From positions 1 through 64,000 of the IMG/VR virus record IMGVR_UViG_3300021197_001928: 64,000 nucleotides of DNA, one strand, 5' to 3'. Under the pieces are notes generated by a model. The model ran no database searches. It was not told the origin of the DNA and saw nothing but the letters and a program-made list of their open reading frames with translations. Source of the stretch: a virus. The position numbers were made by a program, and so were the translations under genes. Positions 2,771 through 22,569 of this stretch are shown here, in pieces. Within the stretch, counting starts at the first letter, position 1, and each line of letters begins with the position of its first letter.

Positions 2771-3049
2771 TTATTCACCATATTGCATTATATAGGCTAG
2801 AGCGTTAGGGTCGCCTTCCATTGCGGCTTGCTCTAGTGCAGCAAGTTTTCTCTTCATTGCTTCTTCTTTAGAAAACTGTGGCATGTGCTTATCTTTTTGT
2901 GTCTTCATATCATGTTCACCTTCATAAGCTTCTTCGTTCATATAACCTTCTTCGTTCATATAACCTTGCTCATTCATATGGTCCATCTCATACATAGAGT
3001 TCATCTCTTTGATAATCATCTTTTTTAATTTTTCTGTTGTTAGTTTCAT
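2771..3049 (-). CDS. Small acidic head-region protein with shared N-terminal targeting-like module
   Basis: A 92-residue protein starting with M-K-L-T-T-E-K-L-K-K-M-I-I-K-E-M, one of six copies in the window of a shared N-terminal module. The module is followed by Met/Glu/Tyr-rich tandem hexapeptides of the form G-Y-M-N-E-E (about residues 22-42; an 18-base DNA period near 2933-2980), then a Lys/Glu helix and a C-terminus with A-L-A-Y-I-M-Q. It is immediately upstream of the prohead protease gene. Position and N-terminus suggest a prohead core or internal protein processed at I-K-E. That role is inference; the protein matches no named family I recognise. Confidence 0.6.
   Translation of the reverse strand: MKLTTEKLKKMIIKEMNSMYEMDHMNEQGYMNEEGYMNEEAYEGEHDMKTQKDKHMPQFSKEEAMKRKLAALEQAAMEGDPNALAYIMQYGE
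2933..2980 (-). repeat. 18-base tandem repeat inside the small head-region gene
   Basis: Near-identical copies of a unit containing ttcgttcatataacc lie in tandem and encode repeated G-Y-M-N-E-E hexapeptides. This is a coding repeat, not an intergenic element. Confidence 0.7.
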
Positions 3050-3146
3050 TTTATTATATTCCTTTTTATTTTTTATTGATACCGGCGCTACCGGCTTGAG
3101 TCAGCTACCGCTGCAACAACGTCTAACAGGTTGTAACATCCATTTT

Positions 3147-3458
3147 TTAGTCATCTTTAGCTCCAAGTTGTATGCCGTCATCCTTAACAACCATCGAAAG
3201 CAGGTAAGATGTTCCAGCAGAAAGCCAACCGCATATAAAAAAGTTAGCGATTGTATAATCAAATGTAAATAGTTCGGTTCCAGCGTTTATGACAAAAAGC
3301 AAACAACCAACCCAAAATCCTATACAAAGAGGGCAATGGAATAGAGTATTCCACTTTTTTGTATAATCTTTTTCAGGTCTTAAGTCTTCGAAAATCTTGC
3401 CGTAGACCAAAATAAAGGTCAAGCCATAAGAGGCAAGTACAAAGTAAAGTAATTCCAT
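3147..3458 (-). CDS. Small membrane protein, DUF1360-like
   Basis: A 103-residue protein with hydrophobic segments at about residues 3-20, 46-60 and 70-90, and a conserved-looking F-H-C-P-L-C-I-G-F-W motif (C42, C45) at the entry to the second segment. That motif is characteristic of the DUF1360 family of small membrane proteins found in bacteria and phages, whose function is unknown. It lies between the head-associated 138-residue gene and the small protein before the protease. A 97-base gap follows it (3050-3146), in which I see no convincing gene and only a weak inverted repeat near 3083. Confidence 0.7.
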   Translation of the reverse strand: MELLYFVLASYGLTFILVYGKIFEDLRPEKDYTKKWNTLFHCPLCIGFWVGCLLFVINAGTELFTFDYTIANFFICGWLSAGTSYLLSMVVKDDGIQLGAKDD

Positions 3459-3510
3459 TAAATCTCCAATTTTCTTCGTTAAACTTAAACAGGTAAATCA
3501 TTTATACTGC

Positions 3511-3927
3511 TTATGCTTCTTTGAAACTTGACGGCATTAAATCTACACCAAATTTCTTTGCTAGCTTAACCAAAACAGCGACAGCAATACCTCCACCGGG
3601 CAAAGCGACGATTCCTAATAAGAAGCTGCCCAAAAAGATGTCTTTTATTTGTTCTTTTATAAAGCTAACCTCTTCAGCGCCTAACTTGACTCCTCTCATC
3701 ATTTTTGCAAGAAGTCTAACGCCTTCCTTTGTCTCGGACATTTCTTGTTTAAATTTTCGAAAAAACTCTTTCATGCCTTGAATTCCGGCTTTTCCTTTTT
3801 TCTTAGCCCAGCCCAAAGCATCTTGAATCATTCCCTCTTCAATCAGAATTCGTTCTTGTTCATTAAGCATTTCGTAATTAGCCTCTTTAATAAACCCACG
3901 CCAGTTTTCAAAAATTAGATCTTTCAT
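3511..3927 (-). CDS. Head-region protein with LETM1-like C-terminal segment
   Basis: A 138-residue protein. The N-terminus, F-E-N-W-R-G-F-I-K-E-A, resembles the x-F-I-x-E-A core of T4 capsid-targeting sequences and contains I-K-E. The middle is basic and helical. The C-terminal third has a Gly-rich hydrophobic stretch (F-L-L-G-I-V-A-L-P-G-G-G-I-A-V-A-V-L-V-K) followed by K-F-G-V-D-L-M-P-S-S-F, reminiscent of the hydrophobic segment and L-P-S-x-F ending of LETM1 domains. A short protein with these two elements next to portal and protease genes may be an internal head protein able to interact with membranes. The LETM1 resemblance is by eye only. Confidence 0.55.
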   Translation of the reverse strand: MKDLIFENWRGFIKEANYEMLNEQERILIEEGMIQDALGWAKKKGKAGIQGMKEFFRKFKQEMSETKEGVRLLAKMMRGVKLGAEEVSFIKEQIKDIFLGSFLLGIVALPGGGIAVAVLVKLAKKFGVDLMPSSFKEA

Positions 3928-4571
3928 TAGTAAGTATATCTCCCATAATAATAAGGAGAGAACATTCCATTTTGTTGTATACCGCCTTTTTCGTCTTCGT
4001 GCGGTATTTCTCCCAATTCTGTTGAATATTCGTCATCCGGATCCAGCAAGTGATCGTCCATCATCTCTTCGTGCGCTTCACTTGATTTAGAATAAGGCTG
4101 CTCGGTGGTTATCCATTCGCTAATTTGCAATAAAATATAGTCAATAGACTCTGGTTGCTTGTCTCCTTTCATTTCAAGCATCAATCCCTCCATTGAGCCA
4201 TACACGCTACCGCCTTGGATCGAGTCGTATGCAACAACCCCTTGTCTTCTAAGATGTGTAAAAAGTCTATTTTCGGCACCGTAAACAACGTCGGACATCA
4301 TGTCCTTTGCAAAGGCTACAATTTTCTTTTTTTCTGTCAAAACCATAATATCGATGTCGCTGTGGTCGAAAATCATAAGATCTCCGTTCAAAGCACGTCT
4401 AACTCTAAGTTTAAATTCAAATTTTTGTTTTGTTGGATCATGCACATGCACACGAAGAGGTGGCTCGGCCACTTTAACCTTCAGTGAGTTATCTACATAA
4501 ACAGGAATTTTATCCTCTGGTTTAATGTTAACTCCTAGTTCTTTTTCTCTATCAATATTAATTGTCGGCAT
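3927..4571 (-). CDS. Conserved head-module protein, unknown function
   Basis: A 214-residue protein with a mixed alpha/beta first half (D-G-D-L-M-I-F-D-H-S-D-I-D-I-M-V-L near residue 60 is a Gly/Asp turn-rich beta region) and a very acidic C-terminal third (D-D-H-L-L-D-P-D-D-E) ending in a Tyr/Gly-rich tail. No catalytic motif is recognised. It overlaps by one base the genes on both sides, in the interval between portal and protease. In T4 this interval holds small prohead core proteins (gp67, gp68); size and sequence do not match these clearly. A head-assembly role is inferred from position. Confidence 0.55.
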   Translation of the reverse strand: MPTINIDREKELGVNIKPEDKIPVYVDNSLKVKVAEPPLRVHVHDPTKQKFEFKLRVRRALNGDLMIFDHSDIDIMVLTEKKKIVAFAKDMMSDVVYGAENRLFTHLRRQGVVAYDSIQGGSVYGSMEGLMLEMKGDKQPESIDYILLQISEWITTEQPYSKSSEAHEEMMDDHLLDPDDEYSTELGEIPHEDEKGGIQQNGMFSPYYYGRYTY

Positions 4572-5389
4572 TACTTTTTGACCTCTTCAACTAAATCTTG
4601 TATATAAAAAACATCCTTGACTAGTTGTTCTGTTATTGGGTTATTTGAAAAAGACTCTAACTTATCACAAACACGCTCTAATTTAGACAATAAGGCACCA
4701 TTTTTAGAGTTTTTTTGTGTTTCGGTAAGTAGACCTATCTCATTTTTAAGTCTCGAAATTTCCTCGTTTAAGAACGATTTAAGGCCAAGCCCATTATCAG
4801 AAAATGACACGATATAATTAGTCAATAAATCTTTTTGCTCTTTTCTCAAGGACCTTTCATAAGTTTCATTGAATTTATTAACAAAAGTTCTGTACGTCAG
4901 GTTGTCAATGTGTTTCATTTCTTCCTTAATTAATTTTTGCCTTGTTAACAATTTAATTAATTTGGTTTCAATTATCAATCTAGATTTAGCTTTCAATTTA
5001 GAATCAAAAAATGTACCGATTGAAGCAATGTCTTTATAATTTGATAAGAAATTAGCAAAAGCCGATGGAGATAGTGTCTCGTTTATATTTTTTATTAAGA
5101 TCGTTTGTTGATTAAAGACTTCTTTTCGATCCAAATCATGAAAATCTTTACGAGTTTCAGTCAAAAACCTTTGTGCAAACTCTTTTGACATCTTTTTTGA
5201 TTCTAAAATCGACCGATACACTTCCAGATCCTGTCTAAGAGTGGACCCTTTGCAAAAAAACTCTTTCAAGATTAGCAATATTTTGCTTTTTTTCTGATGT
5301 TGTTCTCTTACTACTGATTTTGTGAGTTCTTTAATTAAAGACTCGTAAAGAAAAGCGGTATTTCTTTTCTTATTGTGTTTCATCTTCAT
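4571..5389 (-). CDS. Helical head-module protein, unknown function
   Basis: A 272-residue Lys/Glu/Leu-rich protein that looks entirely helical, with a basic N-terminus (M-K-M-K-H-N-K-K-R-N) and probable coiled-coil stretches around residues 150-170 and 205-240. It starts with GAGG six to seven bases upstream of ATG, inside the end of the portal gene (20-base overlap). Its position between portal and protease suggests a role in prohead assembly. I do not recognise a family. Confidence 0.55.
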   Translation of the reverse strand: MKMKHNKKRNTAFLYESLIKELTKSVVREQHQKKSKILLILKEFFCKGSTLRQDLEVYRSILESKKMSKEFAQRFLTETRKDFHDLDRKEVFNQQTILIKNINETLSPSAFANFLSNYKDIASIGTFFDSKLKAKSRLIIETKLIKLLTRQKLIKEEMKHIDNLTYRTFVNKFNETYERSLRKEQKDLLTNYIVSFSDNGLGLKSFLNEEISRLKNEIGLLTETQKNSKNGALLSKLERVCDKLESFSNNPITEQLVKDVFYIQDLVEEVKK

Positions 5390-7379
5390 TTTGCTTCCTC
5401 TTTATGTTTGTTTGTAACCCTTCTAATAAAACAGAAATTTCATCTTTCATATTAAATAGTTTGTCTTCTTCAATAACGTGTGACTCCATAATTCCTTTAC
5501 CCAATTGCCGAAATTCATGAGGGTATTGTGCACCCTTATTGACTCCATCTGAGTATCCTTTCCATCTTGAGCGAAATGTATTGCCATATTCGCCTGTGGC
5601 TTGATTCTTAAATTGTTTTTTTCTTCCACCTTTGTCATATGAAGACTTATGTCGCCTGTATTGGCCTCTCTTTCTAGACTTGGCTGCGTCTGGCTGTACC
5701 CAAACAGAATCATCACGCTTGGCTGGTGCGGCTAATAGGGTTTCGTCTTCTCCACCACCCGCTCCTGCGCCGGCCTCTTCGTCTCCGCCTAAATCAAGAT
5801 CTCCGCCGCCTGCATCATCATCGGTATCTCCAAGACCGCCCAGATCTCCGAGGTCTCCGCCACCAGCGTCACCGCCAAGGTCTAATCCACCACCGGCATC
5901 TCCACCTGCTGCCCCGCCGGCTGCTGCGGCCTCAAGGCTAGCCATGAATTTTTTATCAAAGTACATTTCTCTTTGCATTCTAAGAAACTCATCTTCTGAT
6001 ATTCCAAGCATGTTTTCCGCAACCCAACGCTTTGAGAAATAGTTTTCTGTTGCTGCGCCTGCTGCTTCAAATTTAACTTTCCAGTGCTCTAATTCTTGAA
6101 GCTCTGCTATTTTTGAAGGATTGTTAAGCCTTAATTTAAAAGATAATAAATCATCTCCACGATAGCCAAGAGTGAACAGGTGAATAATCCCAATCTTTTC
6201 TAGCTCTGATACAATAGAGCGTTGTAGTCTTTGTATTGTTCTTGCAAACCGTATATCTTTTTGTGCAAGAGTTGTTTTATCTTCCTGAGCGCCCTCTCCC
6301 ATTACAAGATATGATTGGGGGATCTTTATAGCGGCAAATAGCTTTTCACGAAGATATTTAACGTCTTCTATTTGCCCGGTAAACTGTCCGCCTGCCATAT
6401 TTTCTATTTTGGTATTAGAGGCCCCACCACGCACAGGTACGAAATAGTCCTCTTCAATTGACAAAGGATTATAGCGAAGATCAACTCGGCCTGTCTTGGG
6501 ATCGACCACTTGATGACGCTTCATTTGTGTCATTACTTTCTGCATATATTGTTCGACATCTTGTGGGGGAATTGCACCAACATCAATATAAAACACTCTA
6601 CGCTCTGGGGAGCGAACAATACGATAAGCCATCATGGCGTCTTCGAGTAAAGTGAGTTGTCTCCAAATACGACGAGCAGGTTCAAGCACTGAAGTACCGT
6701 ATGGGTAATGTTTATCATTGCCGAGGACTCTAAAGTGTGCGACTTGCCAGTTTTCTAGTGTTAGGCCGGCTGAGTTCCATTGGAATTGCACGTAGTTAGG
6801 ATTTGAATCGTCTTCACCTTCAAGTCTTTCAATTTCTTGCTGTGGGACTCCGATACATGACTTAACACCTAGATCATCATCGAGATCCAAATATAGGAAC
6901 AAATCACCATATTTGCACATTGTTCTAGCCCAGCCAAAGAGGTTGTGTTCTATGTTCAACACATTATAATACAATGAACTTAGCACTGCTTTAATTTCTT
7001 CATTTGGGCATTTTATATTAAGCATCGGCTGTATTGAAGAATGCGTCGTTATCTCATCCGCATAAATATCAATGCTCGATGCGATGATGGGTTCATATTC
7101 CATTTCATCAAAGTCAATATATCGCTCTGAGCGGTTTCTATTAGAAATCATACTGACCGTGATAGAATTCATTGCATTGTATTCTGTCTTTTTAAATTGC
7201 TTTCCGCTTGCTGATTTAAATCTAGAAGAAAATATATCTAAATGGCGGCGCCTTAGTTGCCTACCGGTTTGCGTTCTTCTGTTGACAATCGGTCCAGAAA
7301 ACAGTTTTGTTAGTGATCTAAACAATCCAGATGTTTCGTTATATGGGTTGTTACCTTTTCTTATTTTTTTATTAGCCAT
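5370..7379 (-). CDS. Portal vertex protein (T4 gp20-type)
   Basis: A 669-residue protein following the terminase by six bases. Its central region matches T4-type portals: I-A-S-S-I-D-I-Y-A-D-E near residue 100, the stretch R-I-V-R-S-P-E-R-R-V-F-Y-I-D-V-G near 260, and P-Q-S-Y-L-V-M-G-E-G then K-D-I-R-F-A-R-T-I-Q-R-L-Q near 365-390. Portals form the dodecameric ring through which DNA is packaged and ejected. Compared with T4 gp20 (about 520 residues) there is a C-terminal extension that starts with a Gly/Asp low-complexity tract (about residues 480-550) and ends in a basic region plus a helix. The tract is probably a flexible linker. Assignment is confident; the role of the extension is unknown. 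Confidence 0.88.
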   Translation of the reverse strand: MANKKIRKGNNPYNETSGLFRSLTKLFSGPIVNRRTQTGRQLRRRHLDIFSSRFKSASGKQFKKTEYNAMNSITVSMISNRNRSERYIDFDEMEYEPIIASSIDIYADEITTHSSIQPMLNIKCPNEEIKAVLSSLYYNVLNIEHNLFGWARTMCKYGDLFLYLDLDDDLGVKSCIGVPQQEIERLEGEDDSNPNYVQFQWNSAGLTLENWQVAHFRVLGNDKHYPYGTSVLEPARRIWRQLTLLEDAMMAYRIVRSPERRVFYIDVGAIPPQDVEQYMQKVMTQMKRHQVVDPKTGRVDLRYNPLSIEEDYFVPVRGGASNTKIENMAGGQFTGQIEDVKYLREKLFAAIKIPQSYLVMGEGAQEDKTTLAQKDIRFARTIQRLQRSIVSELEKIGIIHLFTLGYRGDDLLSFKLRLNNPSKIAELQELEHWKVKFEAAGAATENYFSKRWVAENMLGISEDEFLRMQREMYFDKKFMASLEAAAAGGAAGGDAGGGLDLGGDAGGGDLGDLGGLGDTDDDAGGGDLDLGGDEEAGAGAGGGEDETLLAAPAKRDDSVWVQPDAAKSRKRGQYRRHKSSYDKGGRKKQFKNQATGEYGNTFRSRWKGYSDGVNKGAQYPHEFRQLGKGIMESHVIEEDKLFNMKDEISVLLEGLQTNIKRKQNEDETQ
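5726..5941 (-). repeat. Low-complexity Gly/Asp-coding tract in the portal gene
   Basis: This stretch encodes repeated G-G-D, G-D-L-G and A-G-G-G units in the portal's C-terminal extension and is visibly more GC-rich than the surroundings. Because of the repeats, the opposite strand shows long open frames that are artefacts. Confidence 0.7.
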
Positions 7380-7385
7380 TTTTTA

Positions 7386-8969
7386 CTATCCTTTGTAAAT
7401 CCAAGAGTATTGCGTTAATTGTTCTTTAAAATCTTGTTGTTTTTCTTTTGTTGTCTCACTATAACCTTGCATACCTTTAATTGTTGTGTTCATGATACTA
7501 TCACTCTTATACATAGAATTTATCATTGCCTTTTTGTATTCTACCTCTCTCTTGTTTACCTGAAGAGCAGTATCCTTTACCCAACAACCGATAGCAATAG
7601 CCATAATTAAATCGTCATTGTACGACCTCATTGCTTGAGGTTTTCCGTTATTCCAGATAAAAGTTTTAAATTCGTGATATAATCTGGATGAATATGTTGT
7701 TAGCATTTTGTTTCTTACGAATTCTTCTAATTTCGCAACAACGAGGGGCCTTGTTTTTGTTGAGGTTGTAAATCCCGGGATTGCCCTTTCCATTGATTCT
7801 CCTTGGTGAGCCTCAACAAACTCATGCGTCGCCTTCATGGAATAATATAAGTTAGGATATCCAAGGTCTACAAGCTTCTCTAAAATAGAAATGCCAATGC
7901 CGTTGTTTTCGACAACCATTAAGCAGCCACCATATTCCATACCAGCATCAAATAAAATTCTAGAATACATATCTAACGTTGGCTTTCCTTGGTATTCTGC
8001 TACGATTTCCATCGTATTTAATTTTAAAATATGAAACACAGAATTATCAGCACCGTCACCACGTGCAACATCAGCAGTTAACAAATATTGATTATTGCCA
8101 TCAAATTTGCCCCATATCCAAAAGTTTCTATCATATCCTGTTCTGTATACGGGTTCTTTTATATTTCCATGAACCCACGTTAAATCATCTGGGTGTATTA
8201 CTGTATCACCGGAAGTATTAAAGTTGCACAATAACTCTTGTGCTATTTGTCTCTTTGACATATTCTTGGTCTCTTTTTCAAACCAAGCCTGATCTCTTTC
8301 GGGGTGTACGTCCCACATTAATTCAATTGGGTTAAATTCATTATCTCCGTCAACAGCACCGACATAAGTTTTATGAAACCAATTACCAGTTCCCTTTGGG
8401 GTAGATAACGCAATACAGCGACCACCGGTCGCCAATGTAGAATAAACAGCAGTCCATATGTCACTCATCTTCTCAATGTGTGCTGCCTCATCGACAACCA
8501 ATAACGACAGAGCTTCAGATCGACCGGCATCTTCCGATGTGGGTACGGCTTTAATAATCGATCCATTTGACAATTCAAAGGATGTCCTATTATCCACATC
8601 AATAGTCGCAATTTTCATCCAATCAGGTAGATTCTTCATCATGCTTTTTACTTTTTTAACTAAATTGGCCGCTGTGCTGAACTTTGTTGCTAATACAACG
8701 ATGCTCTTTTCTTTGTGAAAAAGCATAAACCAAACACAATAAGCAGCGGTAATCGTAGAGATTCCTAACTGCCTAGCTTTTAATATTACATTAAATCGAA
8801 AATCATTATAATCATTTAGCAAATCGTCTTGATAAGGGTAGGTTTTAAATTGAATTAGCCCCCTCATTGGGTGACTTATGCGACAATAATTATTAATAAA
8901 GTATGGAGCATCTTTCCCACACTTTAATATTTCTTTAACAATTTGTTTTTTTGTTAACCTGAAGGCCAT
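7386..8969 (-). CDS. Terminase large subunit (T4 gp17-type)
   Basis: A 527-residue DNA-packaging motor. The N-terminal ATPase domain shows a Walker A-like L-K-A-R-Q-L-G-I-S-T at about residues 63-72, Walker B L-L-V-V-D-E (D160, catalytic E161) and coupling motif A-L-S-T-P-K-G-T-G-N near 189. The C-terminal RNaseH-like nuclease domain begins with T-A-D-V-A-R-G-D-G near 298, where the first catalytic Asp lies. The protein uses ATP to drive DNA into the prohead through the portal and cuts the concatemer. Length is slightly under T4 gp17 (610). It is followed immediately by the portal gene, the usual order. Confident. Confidence 0.93.
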   Translation of the reverse strand: MAFRLTKKQIVKEILKCGKDAPYFINNYCRISHPMRGLIQFKTYPYQDDLLNDYNDFRFNVILKARQLGISTITAAYCVWFMLFHKEKSIVVLATKFSTAANLVKKVKSMMKNLPDWMKIATIDVDNRTSFELSNGSIIKAVPTSEDAGRSEALSLLVVDEAAHIEKMSDIWTAVYSTLATGGRCIALSTPKGTGNWFHKTYVGAVDGDNEFNPIELMWDVHPERDQAWFEKETKNMSKRQIAQELLCNFNTSGDTVIHPDDLTWVHGNIKEPVYRTGYDRNFWIWGKFDGNNQYLLTADVARGDGADNSVFHILKLNTMEIVAEYQGKPTLDMYSRILFDAGMEYGGCLMVVENNGIGISILEKLVDLGYPNLYYSMKATHEFVEAHQGESMERAIPGFTTSTKTRPLVVAKLEEFVRNKMLTTYSSRLYHEFKTFIWNNGKPQAMRSYNDDLIMAIAIGCWVKDTALQVNKREVEYKKAMINSMYKSDSIMNTTIKGMQGYSETTKEKQQDFKEQLTQYSWIYKG

Positions 8970-8975
8970 TATACA

Positions 8976-9527: not shown

Positions 9528-9545
9528 TGTTTATTTCCTTTTAAT

Positions 9546-9806
9546 TTATTTCTTTTTAGATTCTTGCATTGCGTTTCTATTCATCGCCATTTTTTTCGCT
9601 CGCTCTACATTGCCTTCGAAATTCATAGGGTCTGCGCCGTACATCTCTCTCATCAACTCTACTAGTTCTTGTTGTTTTCTTTCGTGATATCCGCCTGCAA
9701 ACCTATCTGTTTCGCCTTGATATGAAGTGGCCATCTGTGGCATTTCGCTTAGATTTTGCATTTCTTCTTTGATAATCTGCTTAAGTCTCTTATGTGTTAT
9801 TTTCAT
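9546..9806 (-). CDS. Small protein with shared N-terminal targeting-like module
   Basis: An 86-residue protein beginning M-K-I-T-H-K-R-L-K-Q-I-I-K-E-E-M, one of six carriers of the module in this window. The remainder is Met/Glu/Arg-rich and helical with a basic end (E-S-K-K-K). It overlaps by 17 bases the zinc-finger-like gene upstream and lies 18 bases before the next gene. The I-K-E at residues 12-14 is a fitting site for the gp21-type protease. A head-internal protein is inferred; no family beyond the module is recognised. Confidence 0.55.
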   Translation of the reverse strand: MKITHKRLKQIIKEEMQNLSEMPQMATSYQGETDRFAGGYHERKQQELVELMREMYGADPMNFEGNVERAKKMAMNRNAMQESKKK

Positions 9807-10647: not shown

Positions 10648-11019
10648 TTAAACTTTTTTACCGTCAATATAGATGTCAATGCTGTCTAGATCGGGCTTAC
10701 CAATGTTAAACGACTCACCTTCATCAGAACCCGGACCACCAAAGTGCCCAAGCAGTTCTCTTGCCATCTTAAAGCGAGGTGCATTGTCCCAATCCCTTAT
10801 GCTAGCATTGTATCTCATTCGACTTGAATCAAAATCAACATTTCGCCCCTTATAAGTTCCTTTTATCGCCCAACCAGCTTCAGATGGAGTTACTCGAAGT
10901 TCATCTCTTTCTTCCGGATAATATCTTTGAGCCATCTCTCCATGGTCCATAGCTTCGCCTTGAAGCATGCCGAGTTCTTCTTTTATCATCTGTTTTAATT
11001 GTTTTGTTGTTAATTTCAC
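10648..11019 (-). CDS. Small protein with shared N-terminal targeting-like module
   Basis: A 123-residue protein beginning M-K-L-T-T-K-Q-L-K-Q-M-I-K-E-E-L, the most consensus-like copy of the shared module. After it comes a compact-looking domain of mixed strands (W-A-I-K-G-T-Y-K-G-R-N-V-D-F-D; F-K-M-A-R-E-L-L-G-H-F-G-G-P-G-S) ending in D-S-I-D-I-Y-I-D-G-K-K. It overlaps the upstream secreted-protein gene by ATGA. Module plus folded domain suggests cargo delivered to the capsid, with cleavage at I-K-E; this is inference. The folded domain is not recognised. Confidence 0.6.
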   Translation of the reverse strand: MKLTTKQLKQMIKEELGMLQGEAMDHGEMAQRYYPEERDELRVTPSEAGWAIKGTYKGRNVDFDSSRMRYNASIRDWDNAPRFKMARELLGHFGGPGSDEGESFNIGKPDLDSIDIYIDGKKV

Positions 11020-12071: not shown

Positions 12072-12151
12072 TAGCAACAGCCTCCCTTACAAGTGCAACC
12101 TTCACAGCATGGTGTTGTGCATTTGCATTTTTTTTCTTCTGTTTTACTCAT
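12071..12151 (-). CDS. 26-residue metallothionein-like Cys-rich peptide
   Basis: A tiny frame from ATG 12151 to TAA 12071. AGAGG lies eight bases upstream, an ATGA overlap couples it to the preceding gene (stop 12148-12150), and a TAATG overlap couples it to the next. After a Lys/Glu-rich start, eight of the last 18 residues are Cys: positions 9, 11, 15, 16, 19, 21, 25 and 26, in a C-K-C ... C-C-E-G-C-T-C ... C-C pattern. Clustered C-x-C and C-C with no aromatic residues is the hallmark of metallothioneins. The usual families are longer (about 50-60 residues), so this is at most a one-cluster mini version binding Zn, Cu or Cd thiolates. That the frame is real is well supported by its precise coupling; metal binding is inferred. 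Confidence 0.7.
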   Translation of the reverse strand: MSKTEEKKCKCTTPCCEGCTCKGGCC

Positions 12152-12498
12152 TTTTTGTTCCTCTTTTTGTTTTCCATATATTTTTGGTAATGGTCTGGCC
12201 CTTTAGTAAAGTCTGGCTTTCTACCATAAAATGGCTCTGATTTGCGTGTTTCGTATTCCTTTTCATGTCCACCTTGAGCCATACCATCTTGCATGCCTCT
12301 CTGGTATTCAGGGTCTTCCAAGATGCCTCGATCTTGCTCTCCGCTTTCTTTACCGAACCTTACCTTACTGAATCCTGCGACCCAGCCCTTGCGGTACATC
12401 GGTGTACCTTCGGGTACTTCCTGTAAAAGTTCCATTTCGGTTAGAGCCTGAAGCTCTTCTTTGATCATTTGTCTTAATCTTTCTGATGTTAGTTTCAT
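12148..12498 (-). CDS. Small protein with shared N-terminal targeting-like module
   Basis: A 116-residue protein beginning M-K-L-T-S-E-R-L-R-Q-M-I-K-E-E-L, one of six module carriers. The rest contains Y-R-K-G-W-V-A-G-F and two Gly/Arg/Glu-rich stretches (E-Y-Q-R-G-M-Q-D-G-M-A-Q-G-G), ending in a Lys/Asn-rich tail. It is two bases after the Mre11-Rad50 fusion and heads the small-protein cassette, overlapping the metallothionein-like gene by ATGA. Capsid-internal cargo is inferred from the module; the C-terminal part is unrecognised. Confidence 0.55.
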   Translation of the reverse strand: MKLTSERLRQMIKEELQALTEMELLQEVPEGTPMYRKGWVAGFSKVRFGKESGEQDRGILEDPEYQRGMQDGMAQGGHEKEYETRKSEPFYGRKPDFTKGPDHYQKYMENKKRNKK

Positions 12499-16095: not shown

Positions 16096-16096
16096 A

Positions 16097-16711
16097 TTAT
16101 CCTCCTTCTTTGTTGTAAAGTCTCTTGCCTTCATTCAAATACTTCTTAATTTGCTCGCTCTCTTTCTTTAGTAACACATCTCGTGATATGTCGCAAGGTA
16201 ATTTTTCGATTACTTCATAAATAAATGCTTCCTCTCCGTACTTGTCCCAGTCTTCTTGAAGTTGTTTGTTGCCGTGTCTGTTGTGTCGCAAATTCCATTT
16301 GTGATTGGCCCATCGATTTCGATATGCGGTTGATTGGCCAATATAAGTTGTTCCTGTTTTTATGTTTGTTATTTTATAGACCGCAGCAGGTTGTTGTGTA
16401 CGGCATTCTTTCTTGCGTTCATTAATTCGTTCTTTGTTTTTTTCATAGTGTTTTTTATCGTACTCTTTCTTTCGTTCTTTGTTTTTTTCATAGTATTCTT
16501 TGAGCCGTTCTTTGTTTTTTTCATAGTATTCTTTTTGTTGTTTTGAAATTCGTTCTTTGTTTTTTTCATAGTATTCTTTCACGTATCCTTTTTGTTGTTT
16601 TAAAATTCGTTCTTTGTTTTTTTCATAGTATTCTTTTTGTTGTTTTGAAATTCGTTCTTTGTTTTTTTCATACCATTTTTTATGGTATTCTCTTCTGTCT
16701 CTTTTCGTCAC
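16097..16711 (-). CDS. GIY-YIG endonuclease with N-terminal repeat arm
   Basis: A 204-residue protein. Residues 1 to about 105 are tandem copies of Y-Y-E-K-N-K-E-R-I units, strongly charged and helical. The C-terminal half is a GIY-YIG nuclease: A-V-Y-K-I-T-N, then T-Y-I-G-Q-S with the catalytic Tyr, an Arg at R-N-R-W, an H-N-R-H-G-N-K-Q-L-Q-E-D-W segment, and a catalytic Glu plausibly in E-A-F-I-Y-E-V-I-E. Such proteins are typical homing endonucleases of phages. It overlaps the primase gene by four bases, and a second (HNH) endonuclease lies on the primase's other side. The helical arm probably contacts DNA or self-associates. Confidence 0.88.
   Translation of the reverse strand: MTKRDRREYHKKWYEKNKERISKQQKEYYEKNKERILKQQKGYVKEYYEKNKERISKQQKEYYEKNKERLKEYYEKNKERKKEYDKKHYEKNKERINERKKECRTQQPAAVYKITNIKTGTTYIGQSTAYRNRWANHKWNLRHNRHGNKQLQEDWDKYGEEAFIYEVIEKLPCDISRDVLLKKESEQIKKYLNEGKRLYNKEGG
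16428..16673 (-). repeat. In-frame DNA repeats encoding the charged helical arm
   Basis: Six copies of cgttctttgttttttt (plus-strand reading) begin at 16428, 16473, 16506, 16551, 16608 and 16653. Spacings are 45, 33, 45, 57 and 45 bases, all multiples of three, that is 15, 11, 15, 19 and 15 residues. They encode the Y-E-K-N-K-E-R units of the GIY-YIG protein. Confidence 0.85.
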
Positions 16712-17646
16712 ATTATCCTCCTTAGTTCGTCCATTAAAAAATAATCATCATGGTCAATGGCTTGCGCCATCTCCCTTCGAGTTTCCAAAACCCTTCGTGG
16801 CATTTCAGCGATGTCCTCAAATCCACTTACATCGATCTTGTAAAGTTCGATGTCATAGTATAACATATTTTTGATGATTTGTCCAGTCTTTTTCTCTGCA
16901 TCATGATCAAAAGCTAAGTAAACCGGCGTGTCATTCAGGGCAATCGCTTGAAATAATTTTGTTTTGTCTCGTAAAGTGGAGCCAAGCACAGGAATAGCGT
17001 TTTCCCCAGCCGCTATGGCATCAAAAACGCCTTCTACTAACGTGATCGGTTCATCCCAGTCTACAAACAGTTCGTTGAAAATAACGTCCTTCTTGGCCGG
17101 GGGATTGAGATAGCGCCATGAGTGACCCACATAGGATCTTGCAATAAAATAATTAATGTCTCCGTTGTTGTTAAACGAAGGTATAACAACTCTGCCTCCA
17201 TAATGACCTTCGGGACAATAGCCTATCTTCCACCTCAATATCTTTTCTTTGCTAATTCCTCTACTCTCCAAATATTCTAGTGGCTTCTGTGATGACCGTG
17301 GCAGGCGCTTATTGCAAAGCGAAATAAATTCTTCAGGGAGGTCAATTGTGATCTCCTCTTCAACATTGTTAATTTCATTAAAGATTTGATCAAACTCTGA
17401 TAGATCGAGTCTGCCTTCCAACTCAAGCCACTTCTGTCTTTGCTGGTATGTTCCGAACTTACGAACGATACGATAAGCATTCTTGCCTCTTTTGTCGCAA
17501 ACCCAGCAATGCCAGCCTTTCTTAAGGTTGATTGCTAGTTTCTTCTTGTGATGATTGCAATAAGGACAATGGTAGTATAGTTCACCGCCCGATGGGGTGT
17601 TTGGCCTCCCAAGCATCTCCGATAAAATTCTAACTTTCTCTTCCAT
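16708..17646 (-). CDS. DNA primase (DnaG/gp61-type)
   Basis: A 312-residue primase. The start at 17646 is preferred because GGAGG lies just upstream; it overlaps the HNH gene by 17 bases. A zinc-binding domain at the N-terminus has C27-x2-C30 and C47-x2-C50 with H-C-W-V-C-D-K-R-G. The TOPRIM catalytic core shows L-V-E-G-V-F-D-A-I near 205 and L-A-F-D-H-D-A-E near 245. It makes RNA primers for lagging-strand synthesis with a separate helicase, since no helicase domain is attached. Length is close to T4 gp61 (342). Confidence 0.88.
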   Translation of the reverse strand: MEEKVRILSEMLGRPNTPSGGELYYHCPYCNHHKKKLAINLKKGWHCWVCDKRGKNAYRIVRKFGTYQQRQKWLELEGRLDLSEFDQIFNEINNVEEEITIDLPEEFISLCNKRLPRSSQKPLEYLESRGISKEKILRWKIGYCPEGHYGGRVVIPSFNNNGDINYFIARSYVGHSWRYLNPPAKKDVIFNELFVDWDEPITLVEGVFDAIAAGENAIPVLGSTLRDKTKLFQAIALNDTPVYLAFDHDAEKKTGQIIKNMLYYDIELYKIDVSGFEDIAEMPRRVLETRREMAQAIDHDDYFLMDELRRIM

Positions 17647-18070
17647 TGTTCCTCCTGTTTTCCAATATTTTATACAAGTTGTGGTAGCTCCATTTTCTAC
17701 CACTACGATTATTGTGGTCATTTTCATTTAAATACGCAACAATCTTCGTTAATTTTGCACCACCCTTAGTCATGCTATCAACAATTCCCAATACATTTTG
17801 CTCTTCTCTAGACTCTAATAATTCTGTTCTACATTTGGATATGACATATCCATACTTTGGGTTACCTTGTATCTGACCGGCGAGACGCTTTTTTCTTAAT
17901 CCATCAATTATTAATTTTTTTGAATTTGACGCATTGCCATCTCTTCCGTGCGCTTTCATATGACATGAATGACATAGTGCGACTGTCTTTGTGCCACCTC
18001 GACTTCTTGGAACAACATGGTGCTGGTGGAGGTCTTCTGTTGTCTCGCACTCAAAACATTTATCTTCCAT
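17630..18070 (-). CDS. HNH endonuclease with recombinase-like C-terminal region
   Basis: A 146-residue protein. The N-terminal part is an HNH nuclease: C5-x2-C8, H17-H18 in H-Q-H-H-V-V-P-R-S-R-G-G, and C33-x2-C36 with H41 (C-H-S-C-H-M-K-A-H). From about residue 55 the sequence resembles the DNA-binding region of large serine recombinases: G-L-R-K-K-R-L-A-G, P-K-Y-G-Y, a G-G-A-K-L-T-K-I-V-A-Y-L-N-E segment, then R-S-G-R-K-W-S-Y-H-N-L-Y-K-I-L. This suggests a homing endonuclease using a borrowed specificity module. It begins at ATG 18070, overlapping the last gene of the tandem mini-gene array by one base, and abuts the primase. Confidence 0.82.
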   Translation of the reverse strand: MEDKCFECETTEDLHQHHVVPRSRGGTKTVALCHSCHMKAHGRDGNASNSKKLIIDGLRKKRLAGQIQGNPKYGYVISKCRTELLESREEQNVLGIVDSMTKGGAKLTKIVAYLNENDHNNRSGRKWSYHNLYKILENRRNNGRES

Positions 18071-18246
18071 TATCCCCTCCTTTTAACTGGCTTGTCCTTG
18101 ATGAACTTTGGGTGGAACGGTTGGACTATCCCGTTAGCAAAGCCAACAATGTAATGTTTACCTTTTAGTCCCACTACTATTCCCATCTCTGGGTATCTCA
18201 TTTCGAGCATTGATTTGCTCATGTACGCTAAATCACCTATTTTCAT
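18070..18246 (-). CDS. Tandem GDL(V/A) mini-protein, copy 7
   Basis: A 58-residue product from ATG 18246 to TAA 18070, with GGAGG upstream inside the end of the previous copy. It begins M-K-I-G-D-L-A-Y and has the shared central G-I-V-V-G-L strand, but lacks the L-E-V-I ending, terminating instead in a Lys/Arg-rich tail. Being last in the array, it no longer needs to encode the ribosome site of a further copy; its end instead carries AGGAGGGG before the HNH start. Likely small beta-barrel (SH3-like) fold; function unknown. Confidence 0.7.
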   Translation of the reverse strand: MKIGDLAYMSKSMLEMRYPEMGIVVGLKGKHYIVGFANGIVQPFHPKFIKDKPVKRRG

Positions 18247-18446
18247 ACTTCCTCCAAAAAAAACCTATTTAAAATTATTGTGTCGGTTCCGAATGCAACA
18301 TAATAATTGTCTCCATGTACTGATAAGATAACACCTGCTCTATTATCTGTCAACTTTTTAATTCTTTCATAATACTTTACTGCCGTTAAAGCTCCGGGGC
18401 AGTCGGTAGATGTCATTTTAAAATAAACCAAATCACCTATTTTCAC
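18243..18446 (-). CDS. Tandem GDLV mini-protein, copy 6
   Basis: A 67-residue product beginning at GTG 18446 (M-K-I-G-D-L-V-Y-F). It has an insertion relative to its siblings before the central G-V-I-L-S-V strand, and ends L-E-E-V. GGAGG in the preceding copy lies five to six bases before the GTG. It overlaps copy 7 by ATGA. Confidence 0.75.
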   Translation of the reverse strand: MKIGDLVYFKMTSTDCPGALTAVKYYERIKKLTDNRAGVILSVHGDNYYVAFGTDTIILNRFFLEEV

Positions 18447-18612
18447 TTATTACCTCCAATTCATATTTATAAAAAGGCCACGCTGTTATATCTCCATTTA
18501 ACATTACAGATACCATGCCAGTGTCTCCACTCCAATGCATAGCAATCACTATACCATACCCATTATCTCTCATGGTTTTCTTTTTAATCTTTACTAAATC
18601 TCCTATTTTCAC
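18433..18612 (-). CDS. Tandem GDLV mini-protein, copy 5
   Basis: A 59-residue product from GTG 18612 to TGA 18433. It starts M-K-I-G-D-L-V-K-I, has a central Y-G-I-V-I-A strand and an A-W-P-F-Y segment, and ends L-E-V-I-S-E-N-R. The bases encoding this ending (TTGGAGGTAATAAGTGAA) contain the ribosome site and GTG start of copy 6, which it overlaps by 14 bases. Confidence 0.78.
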   Translation of the reverse strand: MKIGDLVKIKKKTMRDNGYGIVIAMHWSGDTGMVSVMLNGDITAWPFYKYELEVISENR

Positions 18613-18781
18613 TTATTACCTCCAATTCGTCTGCGTGAAACCATGCCGCTTCGTTATCCTCCCAAGCAACTTTTAACAGCTTCCCGTCTGGTGTTTCCAT
18701 TATTTCAATTATGATTCCTATGTGTTCATCAAACTCATAAAACTGTCTCCTGTCGAGCCAGACTAAATCACCCACTTCCAT
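18584..18781 (-). CDS. Tandem GDLV mini-protein, copy 4
   Basis: A 65-residue product from ATG 18781 (M-E-V-G-D-L-V-W-L). It has the central G-I-I-I-E-I strand, V-A-W-E-D-N and the L-E-V-I-S-E-N-R ending, then runs six residues further than copy 5. Overlap with the next copy is 29 bases. The same ending peptide as copy 5 with near-identical DNA at the junction shows a recent duplication of the boundary. Confidence 0.78.
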   Translation of the reverse strand: MEVGDLVWLDRRQFYEFDEHIGIIIEIMETPDGKLLKVAWEDNEAAWFHADELEVISENRRFSKD

Positions 18782-18935
18782 TGATCACCTCTAGGTCCTC
18801 TGCGAAGAATGAATATGAGTGCCCACTAGCAATCCAATAAACCTCTGCCCATTTAAACCTGCCGTTTATTTCTAAAATGATGCCATAGTCTTGCCATGAC
18901 GTGTTCCTAACTTTTACTAAGTCTCCAACCTTCAC
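18768..18935 (-). CDS. Tandem GDLV mini-protein, copy 3
   Basis: A 55-residue product starting at GTG 18935 (M-K-V-G-D-L-V-K-V), preceded by GGAGG; an upstream in-frame extension exists but aligns with no sibling. It shows the G-I-I-L-E-I strand and ends L-E-V-I-N-G-S-G, overlapping copy 4 by 14 bases. Confidence 0.75.
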   Translation of the reverse strand: MKVGDLVKVRNTSWQDYGIILEINGRFKWAEVYWIASGHSYSFFAEDLEVINGSG

Positions 18936-19135
18936 TTTACCACCTCCAACATAGTGACTTTGTATAATTCGTGCTCTCCATTGTCCCACAAGACCCAAAC
19001 ATATTCAATACACTGGTCAATGTTACGTGGGGAATGATATTCAATTCTTGAAGTTGTAACTCCGTATGTAACCTCTAATGAGTACTTGTTTCTAACCAGA
19101 GCACCTTCTTTAATAAAACTAACTGGTCTTTTCAC
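18932..19135 (-). CDS. Tandem GDLV-family mini-protein, copy 2 (diverged)
   Basis: A 67-residue product from GTG 19135. The N-terminus has diverged (K-R-P-V-S-F-I-K-E-G-A-L-V-R) but keeps the G-x-L-V core, a V-W-V-L-W-D-N strand and the M-L-E-V-V-K ending, whose codons (TTGGAGGTGGTAAAGTGA) hold the ribosome site and start of copy 3. Overlap with copy 3 is ATGA-like, four bases. Confidence 0.7.
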   Translation of the reverse strand: MKRPVSFIKEGALVRNKYSLEVTYGVTTSRIEYHSPRNIDQCIEYVWVLWDNGEHELYKVTMLEVVK

Positions 19136-19298
19136 GTATAACCTCCAAGTGGTTAACTGGTTCTAAATAGATGTGCTCTGACCCAAACCAGAGTACACCT
19201 ACAAGATATTCGCTGACCACCTCTATAATTATACCATATTCTTTGGAGAAATACAATGGCAAGTCTGGTTTCCACGTGACAAGATCACCTATGCACAT
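19119..19298 (-). CDS. Tandem GDLV mini-protein, copy 1
   Basis: A 59-residue product from ATG 19298 to TAG 19119: M-C-I-G-D-L-V-T-W, central G-I-I-I-E-V-V, then V-L-W-F-G and H-L-E-V-I-R. It starts inside the end of the UvdE-like gene (10-base overlap) and overlaps copy 2 by 17 bases. It is the first of seven tandem members. The G-D-L-V ... G-I-I-x-E-x ... V-x-W ... L-E-V-I pattern suggests a five-stranded SH3/KOW-like barrel; no function is known to me. Confidence 0.75.
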   Translation of the reverse strand: MCIGDLVTWKPDLPLYFSKEYGIIIEVVSEYLVGVLWFGSEHIYLEPVNHLEVIREKTS

Positions 19299-20206
19299 AC
19301 AAAATCTTTCCTGTATTTGAGCAGGGCTTGTTCTTTCATCTTACACTCCAACACAACGTCAACAGGTTGTGCATAGTTCTCGAATGGAGTATAATACCAA
19401 TCTGAATGTGCACTGGCTCGTACCGAACTATCTTCATAGTTTTTCTTAGAGTTGGAGTGATGACACTGCTGCTTGACATTGACCGCATTCCATGTGTCAC
19501 GTGCAAGATAGAATGCATCATGATATGAAGAATCTTGTGGACCAAGCTCGTGATGATGCGAGTCAAACACAATTGGTATGCCAATGTGCTTGGACACGCC
19601 GTTGTAAAGCATCTTGGTGGAGAACATTGATGGTTTGTCGTCGTTCTCAACAGTTAGTCTGGCACGTGTTGTGGCGCCAAGTCTAGCAAAGTTTTTGCAG
19701 AATCTAGCCATGGCTTTGTCATGCTCGCCATACGCACCACCAACATGTATATTGATCTTGGCACGATGTGACACAGGAAGGCCCATGAGGTCCATCTGTA
19801 GGGCATGAGCATCAAGCTCGGCAATGGTTTTGTCAACAGTTGCTTTGTTTGGTGATGCAAGACAGTTGAATGGGCCGGGATGAAATGATAGACGCTGACC
19901 AGCATCCATAGCAATCTTGCCGGCAGCAGACATCGTATCTACAATGGCGTCGATGTCAGGCAAGTCGAAGATGTCATACTCGGACATCCAAGGGAACAGG
20001 TTTGAGGTCATGCGATATACTGAAATATCGTTGACGATATTCCACTCGATGATCTTCTTGAGTGCTGTAACGTTGATAAGAGCTAGCTCTGATGCGTATA
20101 CAATACCTTTTTGTTGAAATGTGCGCTTGATCATACCACGATTGGAACTGACCTTTTGCTTTTGTAATGCTGAGTTGATACATGCGTATCCTAAGTTTAT
20201 TGTCAT
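19289..20206 (-). CDS. UV-damage endonuclease, UvdE/UvsE family
   Basis: A 305-residue TIM-barrel endonuclease. The start at 20206 is chosen for its GGAGG six bases upstream. Conserved family elements are visible in order: L-G-Y-A-C at 5-9, Y-R-M-T-S-N-L-F-P-W at 64-73, L-S-F-H-P-G (H109), N-I-H-V-G-G-A-Y-G (H154), V-E-N-D-D (E187), F-D-S-H-H-H (D215, H217-219) and A-H-S-D-W (H267). These are the metal ligands. The enzyme nicks DNA 5' of UV photoproducts and other lesions, starting excision repair. It is the first gene after promoter P2, suggesting early expression. In a marine virus it would complement light-damage repair. Confidence 0.9.
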   Translation of the reverse strand: MTINLGYACINSALQKQKVSSNRGMIKRTFQQKGIVYASELALINVTALKKIIEWNIVNDISVYRMTSNLFPWMSEYDIFDLPDIDAIVDTMSAAGKIAMDAGQRLSFHPGPFNCLASPNKATVDKTIAELDAHALQMDLMGLPVSHRAKINIHVGGAYGEHDKAMARFCKNFARLGATTRARLTVENDDKPSMFSTKMLYNGVSKHIGIPIVFDSHHHELGPQDSSYHDAFYLARDTWNAVNVKQQCHHSNSKKNYEDSSVRASAHSDWYYTPFENYAQPVDVVLECKMKEQALLKYRKDFVCA

Positions 20207-20228
20207 ATTGACCTCCGATGTTAATATC

Positions 20229-20256
20229 AATATAACCTATTAGAAAAATTTGTCAA
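20229..20256 (-). promoter_or_regulatory. Sigma70-type promoter (P2)
   Basis: On the minus strand TTGACA (20256-20251) and TATATT (20234-20229) are separated by 16 bases. The -35 begins one base after the stop codon of the upstream gene. The UvdE-like gene with its GGAGG follows, and probably the mini-gene array behind it. Confidence 0.82.
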
Positions 20257-20257
20257 G

Positions 20258-21415
20258 TTATTTCATTGACTTTGAGCCACGACATTTCCACTTCTTTCTT
20301 GAAAGGGCGTTAGCGCAGGGAGGGTTCTTGCATTTTTTTATTTTTGCTGATCTTGCACAATAGGCATCGCCCTTCTTTGTTCCGGGACGAATTCTATCTC
20401 CGCCTCCTTTGGCTTGCCCTTTCTGCCCAAATGACCGACACTTACCGTCAACTCTTTTAGCGAAACGCTTTCCCTTTGATGGCTTACATGCTTTCTTTTT
20501 TCGTTGGCGCTTTGAGCCTTTCTTTTCTTCAAGTTCGTCTTCTTTAATAATATCGATTTCTCCCTTATCATCAAGGATATAATCTTTGTCTTTGTGTTGT
20601 CCCACGTCGGGCATAGCATCTAAAGTCTTTTTGATCTCATCTTCCATCCCCTTGCCAATGGCTTTTACAAATGGATCCATACCAGATGCCCCACCTTCGT
20701 CTTTTAAAACCTTTCGCAACGCAGCAGGATCAACATGTGTGTATCCTTTCTTGGCTAGTCCTTCATGATCTTCAACCTTATTAGCTTTAACCTTCTTGTT
20801 GCTTTTGGGGTCATACATCATGTGTGGCTTAAAATTACTTTCTTTTAACCGATTTATACGAACCTCAACAACTCTTTTTCGGGATTCATTTTGTTTTGGT
20901 TCTGTTTTACATGCAGAAGGAGTAGGCCTACAATACGGCTTTGGATCACTAGGCTTTTCTCTAGCACATTCTTTATATCCGCCGTCGCCATCTGGGCGAT
21001 TACAATTAACCCATCCGCCTTTGGAGCCTTTTTCACCCTTGCGTTTGAACCACTTGTCTAAACGACCAGCATCTTCACTACTTTGTTTACCTTCTTTCTT
21101 GGGTTCACCTTCTTTCCAATTAGCAGCACCAACTTTACGACACTGAACAAGGCGCCCTGAAGCATATGCTGAAGGCCATGTCCCGCCTTTTCTTTTTACT
21201 GCCCCTTTGATTTTTTTGTAGCATGCGTCTTTTTTAACTTTGTCGTCTTCGTTCAATCCTTCGTCTGCTTTGACGCAATTTCGATATGTTTTGCCATACA
21301 TTTCTTTGGTTTTACGAGTTGGGTGTGTCTTATATCCCTTTTCACAACGCTCATCAAGAATCACTTCAAGTTCCTCTTGAATAATTTGCTGTAGTTGTTC
21401 TATTGTAAAATTCAT
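20258..21415 (-). CDS. Modular Cys-rich basic protein with shared N-terminal module
   Basis: A 385-residue protein beginning M-N-F-T-I-E-Q-L-Q-Q-I-I-Q-E-E-L, one of six module carriers. After it come several small Cys/Trp/basic units: G-Y-K-T-H-P-T-R and Y-R-N-C-V-K near 30-45; C-Y-K-K-I-K ... W-P-S-A-Y-A-S-G-R-L-V-Q-C-R-K (about 65-95), which matches the DUF5872-type motif of phages and giant viruses; G-G-W-V-N-C-N-R-P and C-R-P-T-P-S-A-C-K (about 133-168); and a C-terminal G-D-A-Y-C-A-R-S ... W-K-C-R-G unit. The overall charge is strongly basic. Module plus basic units suggests a DNA-binding protein packaged with the genome; this is inference. It overlaps the kinase-like gene by ATGA. Confidence 0.6.
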   Translation of the reverse strand: MNFTIEQLQQIIQEELEVILDERCEKGYKTHPTRKTKEMYGKTYRNCVKADEGLNEDDKVKKDACYKKIKGAVKRKGGTWPSAYASGRLVQCRKVGAANWKEGEPKKEGKQSSEDAGRLDKWFKRKGEKGSKGGWVNCNRPDGDGGYKECAREKPSDPKPYCRPTPSACKTEPKQNESRKRVVEVRINRLKESNFKPHMMYDPKSNKKVKANKVEDHEGLAKKGYTHVDPAALRKVLKDEGGASGMDPFVKAIGKGMEDEIKKTLDAMPDVGQHKDKDYILDDKGEIDIIKEDELEEKKGSKRQRKKKACKPSKGKRFAKRVDGKCRSFGQKGQAKGGGDRIRPGTKKGDAYCARSAKIKKCKNPPCANALSRKKWKCRGSKSMK

Positions 21416-22569
21416 TTGTTTCTCCTCTTTGATGCTTTTTCTTGAATATTGGTTACGTCTGTTCCGTATTTGGTTGGCTTAGTGTGATCTTCACGAAACA
21501 AACCCACATCAACAATAACAATGTCTTTTGTTCCCGGCCTTACAAGGACATTTCTATCGTGCATATCATACGCATCGATGCCTACTTTATTTTTAACTTC
21601 TTCAATAGCTGCCAATAGACTCTTGGCACCGGGATAGCTAAGACCTTCAGTTTCTTTGGGGGCTCCGGGATAGTTTGGGCCACCCATACCAATTGGTGTG
21701 TAATTCCTATATGACTCAATAAAGTGCTCAACAGAAAACTCTAACTCGCTCAAAATATCATTTAGAGTAATTTTTTGTGGGTATTCTTGTAGCAACTTAA
21801 TCGAATAAGCTAAAAAGTAAAACAAAAAAGACATAGCAGCTACACCAGATTTTGCTAAATCTTCCTCAGCAACATCCATATAATCCCACAATGCAGGGCT
21901 CTTCTGTGACATTCTTGCTTTCAGTTTGTTAAACTTTTCTTGTGGGTAGATCATATTATCAAAGTTCATTGCTAAAACAACCTTCCGCAGTTCATCTCGA
22001 ACCTCATTAGGAAAACTATAGGCCATGTGATTAATAAGAATTAGCCTGCTCTTTGGCTCAACCACCATCATATTTGCTCTATAACCAATGTCCTTAAAGA
22101 CATCTAAATCTTGCAATGACACGTCAGGTCTAAACGCTCCAACTTCCCTATATCCAAACAGATCCTCAATGACTGCCTTTACATTGGGATCACTTTCTAG
22201 CAATTCCATAACAATGATTACATGTTTCCCATCCGAGGTCTTACGAATCATATCAACTCTAGGAAAGTGCTTGGCAATTAGTGGAGAATCTCTTCTGGCG
22301 TCAGAGATCATTCTGTAGATTCGTGCTTCTTTTTGTGCATGCACATCATTAGAAAGCACTTTTATAGCCCTTTCTAGGCCATCATAGCGCCAACTTCCCT
22401 TGAAAACACTCCCATATTGTCCCGAAGAAATAAATTCAACGTTTGTAAAGCCTATTTCATCAGTGGCCTTTATCATTTCATCGGGGTTCGGTGTTATTCT
22501 CGACTCATTAAATAATTTTTGCAGTTCTTCATTGATTATATGTTTTAACTGGTATTGTGTAAGATTCAT
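21412..22569 (-). CDS. Protein-kinase-like protein with shared N-terminal module
   Basis: A 385-residue protein. The ATG at 22569 is preferred over an in-frame GTG two codons earlier: GGAG lies eight bases upstream, and it gives M-N-L-T-Q-Y-Q-L-K-H-I-I-N-E-E-L, the module shared with five other proteins. A kinase fold follows: glycine loop I-S-S-G-Q-Y-G-S-V (48-56), A-I-K lysine (K70), helix-C Glu (E81), hinge M-E-L-L (121-124), a large middle insertion, catalytic D-M-H-D-R-N (D335, N340) and metal-binding D-V-G (D354). All core catalytic residues are present, so activity on protein or a small molecule is plausible. T4 packages the ADP-ribosyltransferase Alt in the head with a cleavable targeting peptide, and this may be an analogous injected kinase. 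Kinase fold: good confidence; packaging: inference. Confidence 0.75.
   Translation of the reverse strand: MNLTQYQLKHIINEELQKLFNESRITPNPDEMIKATDEIGFTNVEFISSGQYGSVFKGSWRYDGLERAIKVLSNDVHAQKEARIYRMISDARRDSPLIAKHFPRVDMIRKTSDGKHVIIVMELLESDPNVKAVIEDLFGYREVGAFRPDVSLQDLDVFKDIGYRANMMVVEPKSRLILINHMAYSFPNEVRDELRKVVLAMNFDNMIYPQEKFNKLKARMSQKSPALWDYMDVAEEDLAKSGVAAMSFLFYFLAYSIKLLQEYPQKITLNDILSELEFSVEHFIESYRNYTPIGMGGPNYPGAPKETEGLSYPGAKSLLAAIEEVKNKVGIDAYDMHDRNVLVRPGTKDIVIVDVGLFREDHTKPTKYGTDVTNIQEKASKRRNK

Follow-up and report, generated by a model that had tools for sequence, protein, structure and literature searches.

Why should several unrelated proteins of one virus begin with the same 16 residues? This question is raised by a stretch of 64,000 nucleotides (the window), which comprises bases 1-64,000 of the 95,829-base IMG/VR virus record IMGVR_UViG_3300021197_001928. 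The remainder of the record was examined as well, and coordinates marked G000 refer to the full record. The initial annotation had listed six genes of the window with a common N-terminal module, here called T1, and had proposed that it is a tag that directs proteins to the phage head and is cut off there by a gp21-type protease (Peptidase_S77). Our analysis supports this proposal and extends it to a second tag, T2. With a probability of about 0.8, T1 and T2 are removable capsid-targeting propeptides, and we infer packaging, cleavage and ejection of the proteins that carry them.

The T1 Module Heads Eleven Genes of the Record

The consensus of the 16-residue module is MK(I/L)TxxxLKxIIKEEL, and a linker follows. 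A looser pattern was used to search 106 non-overlapping genes of at least 60 amino acids (aa) from the whole record. T1 was found at the N-terminus of 11 of them, six in the window and five beyond it, and a record-wide search revealed no internal match. Residue shuffles of the record's proteins (n = 300) also yielded none. The module was confirmed at the annotated start of all six genes of the window, at the following positions:

3002..3049, minus strand: T1 tag MKLTTEKLKKMIIKEM, heads the 92-aa acidic protein 2771-3049
9759..9806, minus strand: T1 tag MKITHKRLKQIIKEEM, then NLSE, 86-aa protein 9546-9806
10972..11019, minus strand: T1 tag KLTTKQLKQMIKEEL, GTG start, 123-aa protein 10648-11019
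12451..12498, minus strand: T1 tag MKLTSERLRQMIKEEL, then ALTE, 116-aa protein 12148-12498
21368..21415, minus strand: T1 tag MNFTIEQLQQIIQEEL, then ILDE, 385-aa protein 20258-21415
22522..22569, minus strand: T1 tag MNLTQYQLKHIINEEL, then LFNE, protein kinase-like protein 21412-22569
G000 83022-83399, 85503-86285, 86282-86857, 93683-94327 and 94327-94785: five T1 genes beyond the window

The gene at 21412 has a GTG at 22575, two codons upstream of the tag, and its T1 thus begins at an internal ATG (22569). The sequences diverge after the module, and the remaining parts of the T1 proteins of the record (the bodies) had no match to a common family.

A Second Tag, T2, and a Possible Third

The protein at 3511-3927, with its F-I-K-E-A, had been regarded as a possible seventh, variant copy of T1. 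It proved to be a member of the second family, T2, which has the consensus MKLLxENWRK(F/Y)LxE and three further copies in the record:

3883..3927, minus strand: T2 tag MKDLIFENWRGFIKE, then A, 138-aa protein 3511-3927
G000 74822-79492, 89263-90012 and 91967-92743: other T2 genes of the record, with the N-termini MKLILENWQSFVNE (1556 aa), MKLLMESWRKFVNE (249 aa) and MKLIFENYRRGMLAE (258 aa)

T2 resembles the T4 capsid-targeting peptide MKTYQEFIAE in its layout and its end, and T1 is dissimilar to that peptide.

Several unrelated proteins of a sister lineage (loci L495, L497, L024, L044 and L107) begin with MIKLKxLLxE, after which A, S or a different residue follows, and this may be a third tag. 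The pattern had 12 matches in tagged loci versus 3 in control loci, and some of the 12 overlap with T1. The protein at L003 3642-4010 (G000 82641-83009) begins with MKKIKVKIINESKLNE and has L-x-E-like motifs inside; it is a single copy, so on present evidence it is no tag.

Distribution in Viral and Cellular Sequences

Degenerate DNA patterns were used to search for T1 and for T2, and each pattern was found in at least 120 stretches of IMG/VR. When the codons of the T1 pattern were shuffled at similar stringency (17 versus 18 fixed bases), no stretch was found, and tags were absent from 120 control loci on random contigs, which had been drawn with a random 15-mer. These results bear on the idea that short N-termini rich in Lys and Glu, which form helices, have converged by chance. 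The composition is indeed simple and common, but the record holds 11 copies versus 0 expected, the codon-shuffled pattern gave 0 stretches versus at least 120, and the control loci gave 0 of 120. Chance convergence is thereby refuted, and its probability is close to nil.

In cellular genomes (one genome per species, 84,980 species) 10 stretches were found. Two were spurious short frames, and most were viral contigs inside metagenome-assembled genomes (MAGs). The host assemblies of the non-spurious matches encoded an S77 protease in three of eight cases, and in the Halobacteriovorax and Methylococcaceae MAGs the contig with the protease may, to judge from contig numbers and lengths, be the tagged contig itself. 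A match on a WOR-3 chromosome was rejected as a cellular gene; it lies beside an assembly gap and adjoins a phage-type gene.

A tblastn search of isolate phages with the short tags gave one weak match, to an uncultured huge phage, with queries too short for sensitivity, so that absence from isolates does not follow. By direct inspection no clear tags were seen in most of the Flavobacterium phage immuto, part of Microcystis phage Mel-JY01 and nearly all of Pelagibacter phage HTVC008M. A limited check of the literature found no paper in which IIKEEL and "phage" occur jointly with this meaning.

A Positioned Signal for a Probable Cut Site Marks the End of Both Tags

Alignments of 172 non-redundant T1 proteins and of 133 T2 proteins were analyzed. 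In the T1 proteins, residues 1-16 are conserved and divergence sets in afterwards. All residue pairs with gaps of 1 to 5 were compared at residues 17-26 with the expectation from the columns. The most over-represented pair was (L/I)-x-E, with 99 cases seen versus 42.8 expected (z = 8.9), and the pairs ranking next, L-N and E-A, extend it to L-N-E|A. The motif was present at residues 17-26 in 54% of the T1 proteins and in 6-12% in later windows of the alignment, and the residue after the Glu was most often A, then G, then S. In T2, (L/I)-x-E ends at residue 14 in nearly all proteins, and there is no conservation beyond it. The N-termini of the T4 proteins IPII and IPIII read MKTYQEFIAE|A, and T4 gp21 cleaves after L/I-x-E (PMC9026906). 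In the T4 peptide, an Asp at position 10 prevents processing but leaves targeting intact (PMC9026906).

The initial annotation had pointed to an I-x-E within each T1 copy as the place of cleavage. This motif is present in all copies, but the later (L/I)-x-E at residues 17-26 is the likelier main cut site, and the invariant I-x-E is probably not. With residue 16 allowed as first position, the second motif is present in 8 of the 11 T1 copies of the record; it is not matched in the copies at 2771 (MYE), 10648 (none) and 21412 (FNE).

The major capsid proteins of tagged contigs point in the same direction. All 12 that were examined have, at residues 58-61, (L/V)-x-E and next to it A, S, T or Q, and this motif aligns with the Glu65 processing site of T4 gp23. 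It bears only indirectly on the specificity of the S77 proteases of the tagged phages, which may cleave after the Glu in L-x-E.

The alignments also speak to a feature at the DNA level, i.e., a recombination hot spot or a translation-start signal that is copied onto new genes and has no function in the protein. Tagged genes often lie in tandem clusters and their bodies are exchanged, as such a feature would predict. Yet the codons at conserved residues vary freely while the residues are kept (e.g., the Ile/Leu codons at positions 3, 8, 11 and 12), and L-x-E slides in position and still remains a residue pair. An origin of this kind is very improbable.

Tagged Contigs Often Encode a gp21-Type Protease

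The presence of a gp21-type protease gene in the window was borne out by two profile matches:

2124..2750, minus strand: gp21-type prohead protease (Peptidase_S77), PF03420 at 1.9e-35 (122.6 bits, cut-off 27) and phrog_207 at 1.6e-62

Among contigs of at least 100 kb, S77 was encoded on 12 of 14 tagged contigs versus 2 of 8 controls (P = 0.008), and all 12 positive tagged contigs also encoded Gp23. With the limit lowered to about 35 kb, the counts were 26 of 44 versus 3 of 24 (P = 0.0002). The S77-negative contigs were checked for phrog_207 and Gp23, and 17 of 18 had neither, which fits fragments without a head module. One of these large contigs, G017, has eight T1 and four T2 copies by the patterns used; it is regarded as a fragment because terminase, portal, capsid and protease are all missing from the part examined. 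Tagged genes adjoin S77 in 13 of 31 loci; this count was not given much weight, since a part of those tags had served to find the contigs.

Could the module be an amphipathic helix whose task is to hold or sort proteins at a membrane, or at a different structure within the infected cell, with no relation to the head? The spacing of its hydrophobic residues (3, 8, 11, 12, 16 and 19-20) would fit, and residues 5-17 are predicted to be helical. Such a role leaves unexplained the positioned L-x-E|A, the match to the capsid site, the association with S77 and the fact that T2 ends exactly at L-x-E, and we consider it quite unlikely.

In One Lineage T1 Matches the N-Terminus of a Protease Neighbor

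The gene order around S77 in related contigs is the portal gene, two to three further genes, often a variable tagged gene, and S77. Next comes the gene for a conserved protein (about 140 aa), and in most cases one for a ribosomal protein S21-like protein. In the window this order is represented by the following genes in addition to the protease:

7386..8969, minus strand: large terminase, nearest isolates Flavobacterium phages immuto, 45% identity
5370..7379, minus strand: portal, gp20-type, assigned from synteny and BLAST relatives
2771..3049, minus strand: acidic protein of 92 aa with a T1 tag; its gene lies between those for portal and protease, immediately upstream of S77
1714..2124, minus strand: conserved protein, putative prohead-core, N-terminus MNKNELKKILKPLIKECIKEVLFEE, directly after the protease

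The tagged protein 2771-3049 occupies the place of the T4 core proteins gp67 and gp68 (the T4 order was confirmed). The conserved neighbor 1714-2124 is a putative prohead-core protein; it is read as such because its place matches the T4 cluster 20-67-68-21-22-23, and the PHROGs, Pfam and isolate collections contained no match to it. Its counterpart in a sister lineage begins with MKITKSELKSIVKECLVEILGEG, which is the T1 tag including its L-x-E. A T1 profile found 9 of 28 protease-neighbor proteins at the inclusion threshold (E = 2.6e-8 to 0.0024), and none of the open reading frames of the control loci scored below E = 0.09. As T1 equals the N-terminus of the protease neighbor in the lineage with the clear match, the tagged cargo probably imitates that protein.

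The S21-like gene of the window, a small one, lies at 1508-1714 (minus strand), two genes after the protease. Most related contigs have such a gene at the same place, and so does Microcystis phage Mel-JY01, in which its annotation is RpsU.

The Tags Are Separable from Highly Diverse Bodies

The tagged set comprises 453 proteins, whose bodies fall into 309 clusters, 262 of them singletons. Both tags were found on homologous bodies in 7 of the 309 clusters. Among the bodies that can be recognized are GNAT acetyltransferases and protein kinase-like proteins, and both kinds occur with either tag. The clearest exchange was seen in a GNAT family, which has T1 at locus L045 and T2 on six relatives, one of them in this record. 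A tagged GNAT protein was modelled. The predicted local distance difference test score (pLDDT) was about 90 for the core, and residues 1-20 formed a separate helix with a pLDDT of about 57. Foldseek matched the core to GNAT enzymes (probability 1.00, E = 7e-5) with low TM-scores. In this one domain the modelled tag thus lies outside the fold and is no integral part of it, and together with the seven exchange clusters the model suggests that tags and bodies are separable.

The two long T1 proteins of the window were inspected as well. The 20258-21415 protein has body relatives that carry T1, T2 or neither tag. It is rich in Lys and Cys and contains repeated segments such as WPSAYASGxLVxCRKVGAANW and GWVxCNxPDGxGGYKxC, and these repeats are common to phage proteins of unknown function (phrog_727, 38880 and 3477). 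The second protein is:

21412..22569, minus strand: tagged protein kinase-like protein, weak Pfam matches to PF07714 and PF00069 (E about 0.001-0.002, below cut-off)

No relatives of it were found in viral contigs, and its single-sequence model was poor (pLDDT 36) and was not used.

The diversity of the bodies is also important for the possibility that the tag is a removable head propeptide that recruits a chaperone, or keeps the protein inactive until cleavage, and does not serve targeting. The L-x-E|A evidence suits any S77 substrate, T4 propeptides have been credited with chaperonin recruitment besides targeting (PMC10052503), and GroEL is encoded on the tagged contigs G017, G018 and G034. 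On the other side, the bodies are varied, many have 70-150 aa, and a folding problem common to them is not apparent; one body can bear either of two different tags; and T1 equals the start of the protease neighbor in one lineage, which points to core binding. We therefore regard this alternative as unlikely.

A Proposed Model of Head Loading

Capsid targeting by removable propeptides is supported by the N-terminal placement of the tags on hundreds of unrelated bodies and by the exchange of the two tags on homologous ones. Further support comes from the positioned L-x-E|A, which fits gp21 specificity and the capsid site, from the co-occurrence with S77 and from the near-absence from cellular genomes. 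In the proposed mechanism, the short N-terminal helix of T1 or T2 would bring the cargo into the scaffolding core of the T4-like prohead as it forms; for T1, in the lineage with the clear match, this would probably occur by mimicry of the protease-neighbor protein. The S77 protease would then cut after the Glu of the (L/I)-x-E with which the tag ends, and the freed body would stay inside the maturing head, from where it could be ejected with the DNA.

Several observations weigh against capsid targeting. The tagged contigs in the S77 counts had been selected by the possession of tags, and the association partly reflects shared lineage; lineage and function are inseparable in these data. At residues 17-26, (L/I)-x-E is missing in 46% of the T1 proteins, including three of the six copies of the window. 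The T1 profile misses 19 of the 28 neighbor proteins at threshold, and the version in the window (1714-2124) matches less clearly. HTVC008M and immuto have S77, and no tags were seen in them. A tagged genome without the protease was not clearly found, but two large tagged contigs lack a detectable S77. G017 is the fragment described above, and G005 (154 kb) is unexplained: it encodes portal, sheath and tube, S77 and Gp23 were undetected by profile, and it carries one T1 and variants.

G005 (locus L257) is T4-like, and several of its proteins begin with the distant tag-like helices MKVILTESQLNQLIQEEV and MGQKIRISETELRKLIREV.

A wider model is, in our estimation, slightly favored. According to it, uncultured T4-like aquatic phages would load their heads by two or more codes that operate in parallel and can replace each other: T1, which would stem from the start of the protease neighbor, and T2, a relative of the T4 peptide. 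A third (MIKLKxLLxE) may exist in the sister lineage. Together they would bring at least ten proteins into each virion, among them kinases and acetyltransferases that reach the host at infection.

For the majority of proteins from uncultured phages no function is known. A short, readable label for riding in the head would place hundreds of these proteins at once in a set of candidates for injection. It would allow prediction of what uncultured T4-like water viruses may inject into their hosts. If the assignment is true, the kinase-like and GNAT proteins gain a role at the moment of infection, and the tags add to the capsid-targeting sequence (CTS) of T4 new peptides with which proteins can be loaded into phage heads.

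Other Features of the Record

A long cluster of genes for putative sugar-nucleotide, glycosyltransferase, phosphatase and transketolase-like enzymes, assigned by eye from the sequence, extends over 56723-63981 of the window and G000 64000-71300. It suggests modification of surface glycans.

Comparison with Known Systems

The closest known system is the CTS on the T4 internal proteins IPI, IPII and IPIII (Mullaney and Black 1996, reviewed in PMC9026906). In both cases a short N-terminal peptide on unrelated proteins is followed by (L/I)-x-E and a small residue, and gp21 (S77) is encoded in the genome. T2 and MKTYQEFIAE|A have a common layout, i.e., an MK start, aromatic residues and then (F/Y)(L/I)xE. 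In contrast, the T1 helix is different and longer, and its cut site lies beyond the helix. Two tags occur in one genome, and the cargo of this record amounts to 11 T1 and four T2 proteins, versus three internal proteins and Alt in T4. Unlike in T4, targeting and cleavage are here predictions from the sequence. As the T4 core proteins gp67 and gp68 and the scaffold gp22 surround gene 21, so tagged or tag-like proteins lie on either side of the S77 gene, between the portal and capsid genes, but no sequence similarity to gp67 or gp68 was found.

In the giant phages SPN3US and phiKZ, N-terminal propeptides of head proteins are removed by a gp21 relative, and two of them have 20 and 24 residues (PMC10052503). 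Unlike the tags described here, the giant-phage propeptides are mostly long and are not described as one tag common to many cargo proteins, and the specificity in SPN3US is A-x-E (PMC10052503). N-terminal residues of P1 DarB suffice for loading a foreign protein into the head (PMC9024508); this signal belongs to a single large protein, is unrelated in sequence and has no tie to S77 in that report. The principle, that of the T4 CTS, is already known. Novelty lies in T1 as a sequence, in the presence of two tags together, in the agreement of T1 with the protease neighbor and in the scale.

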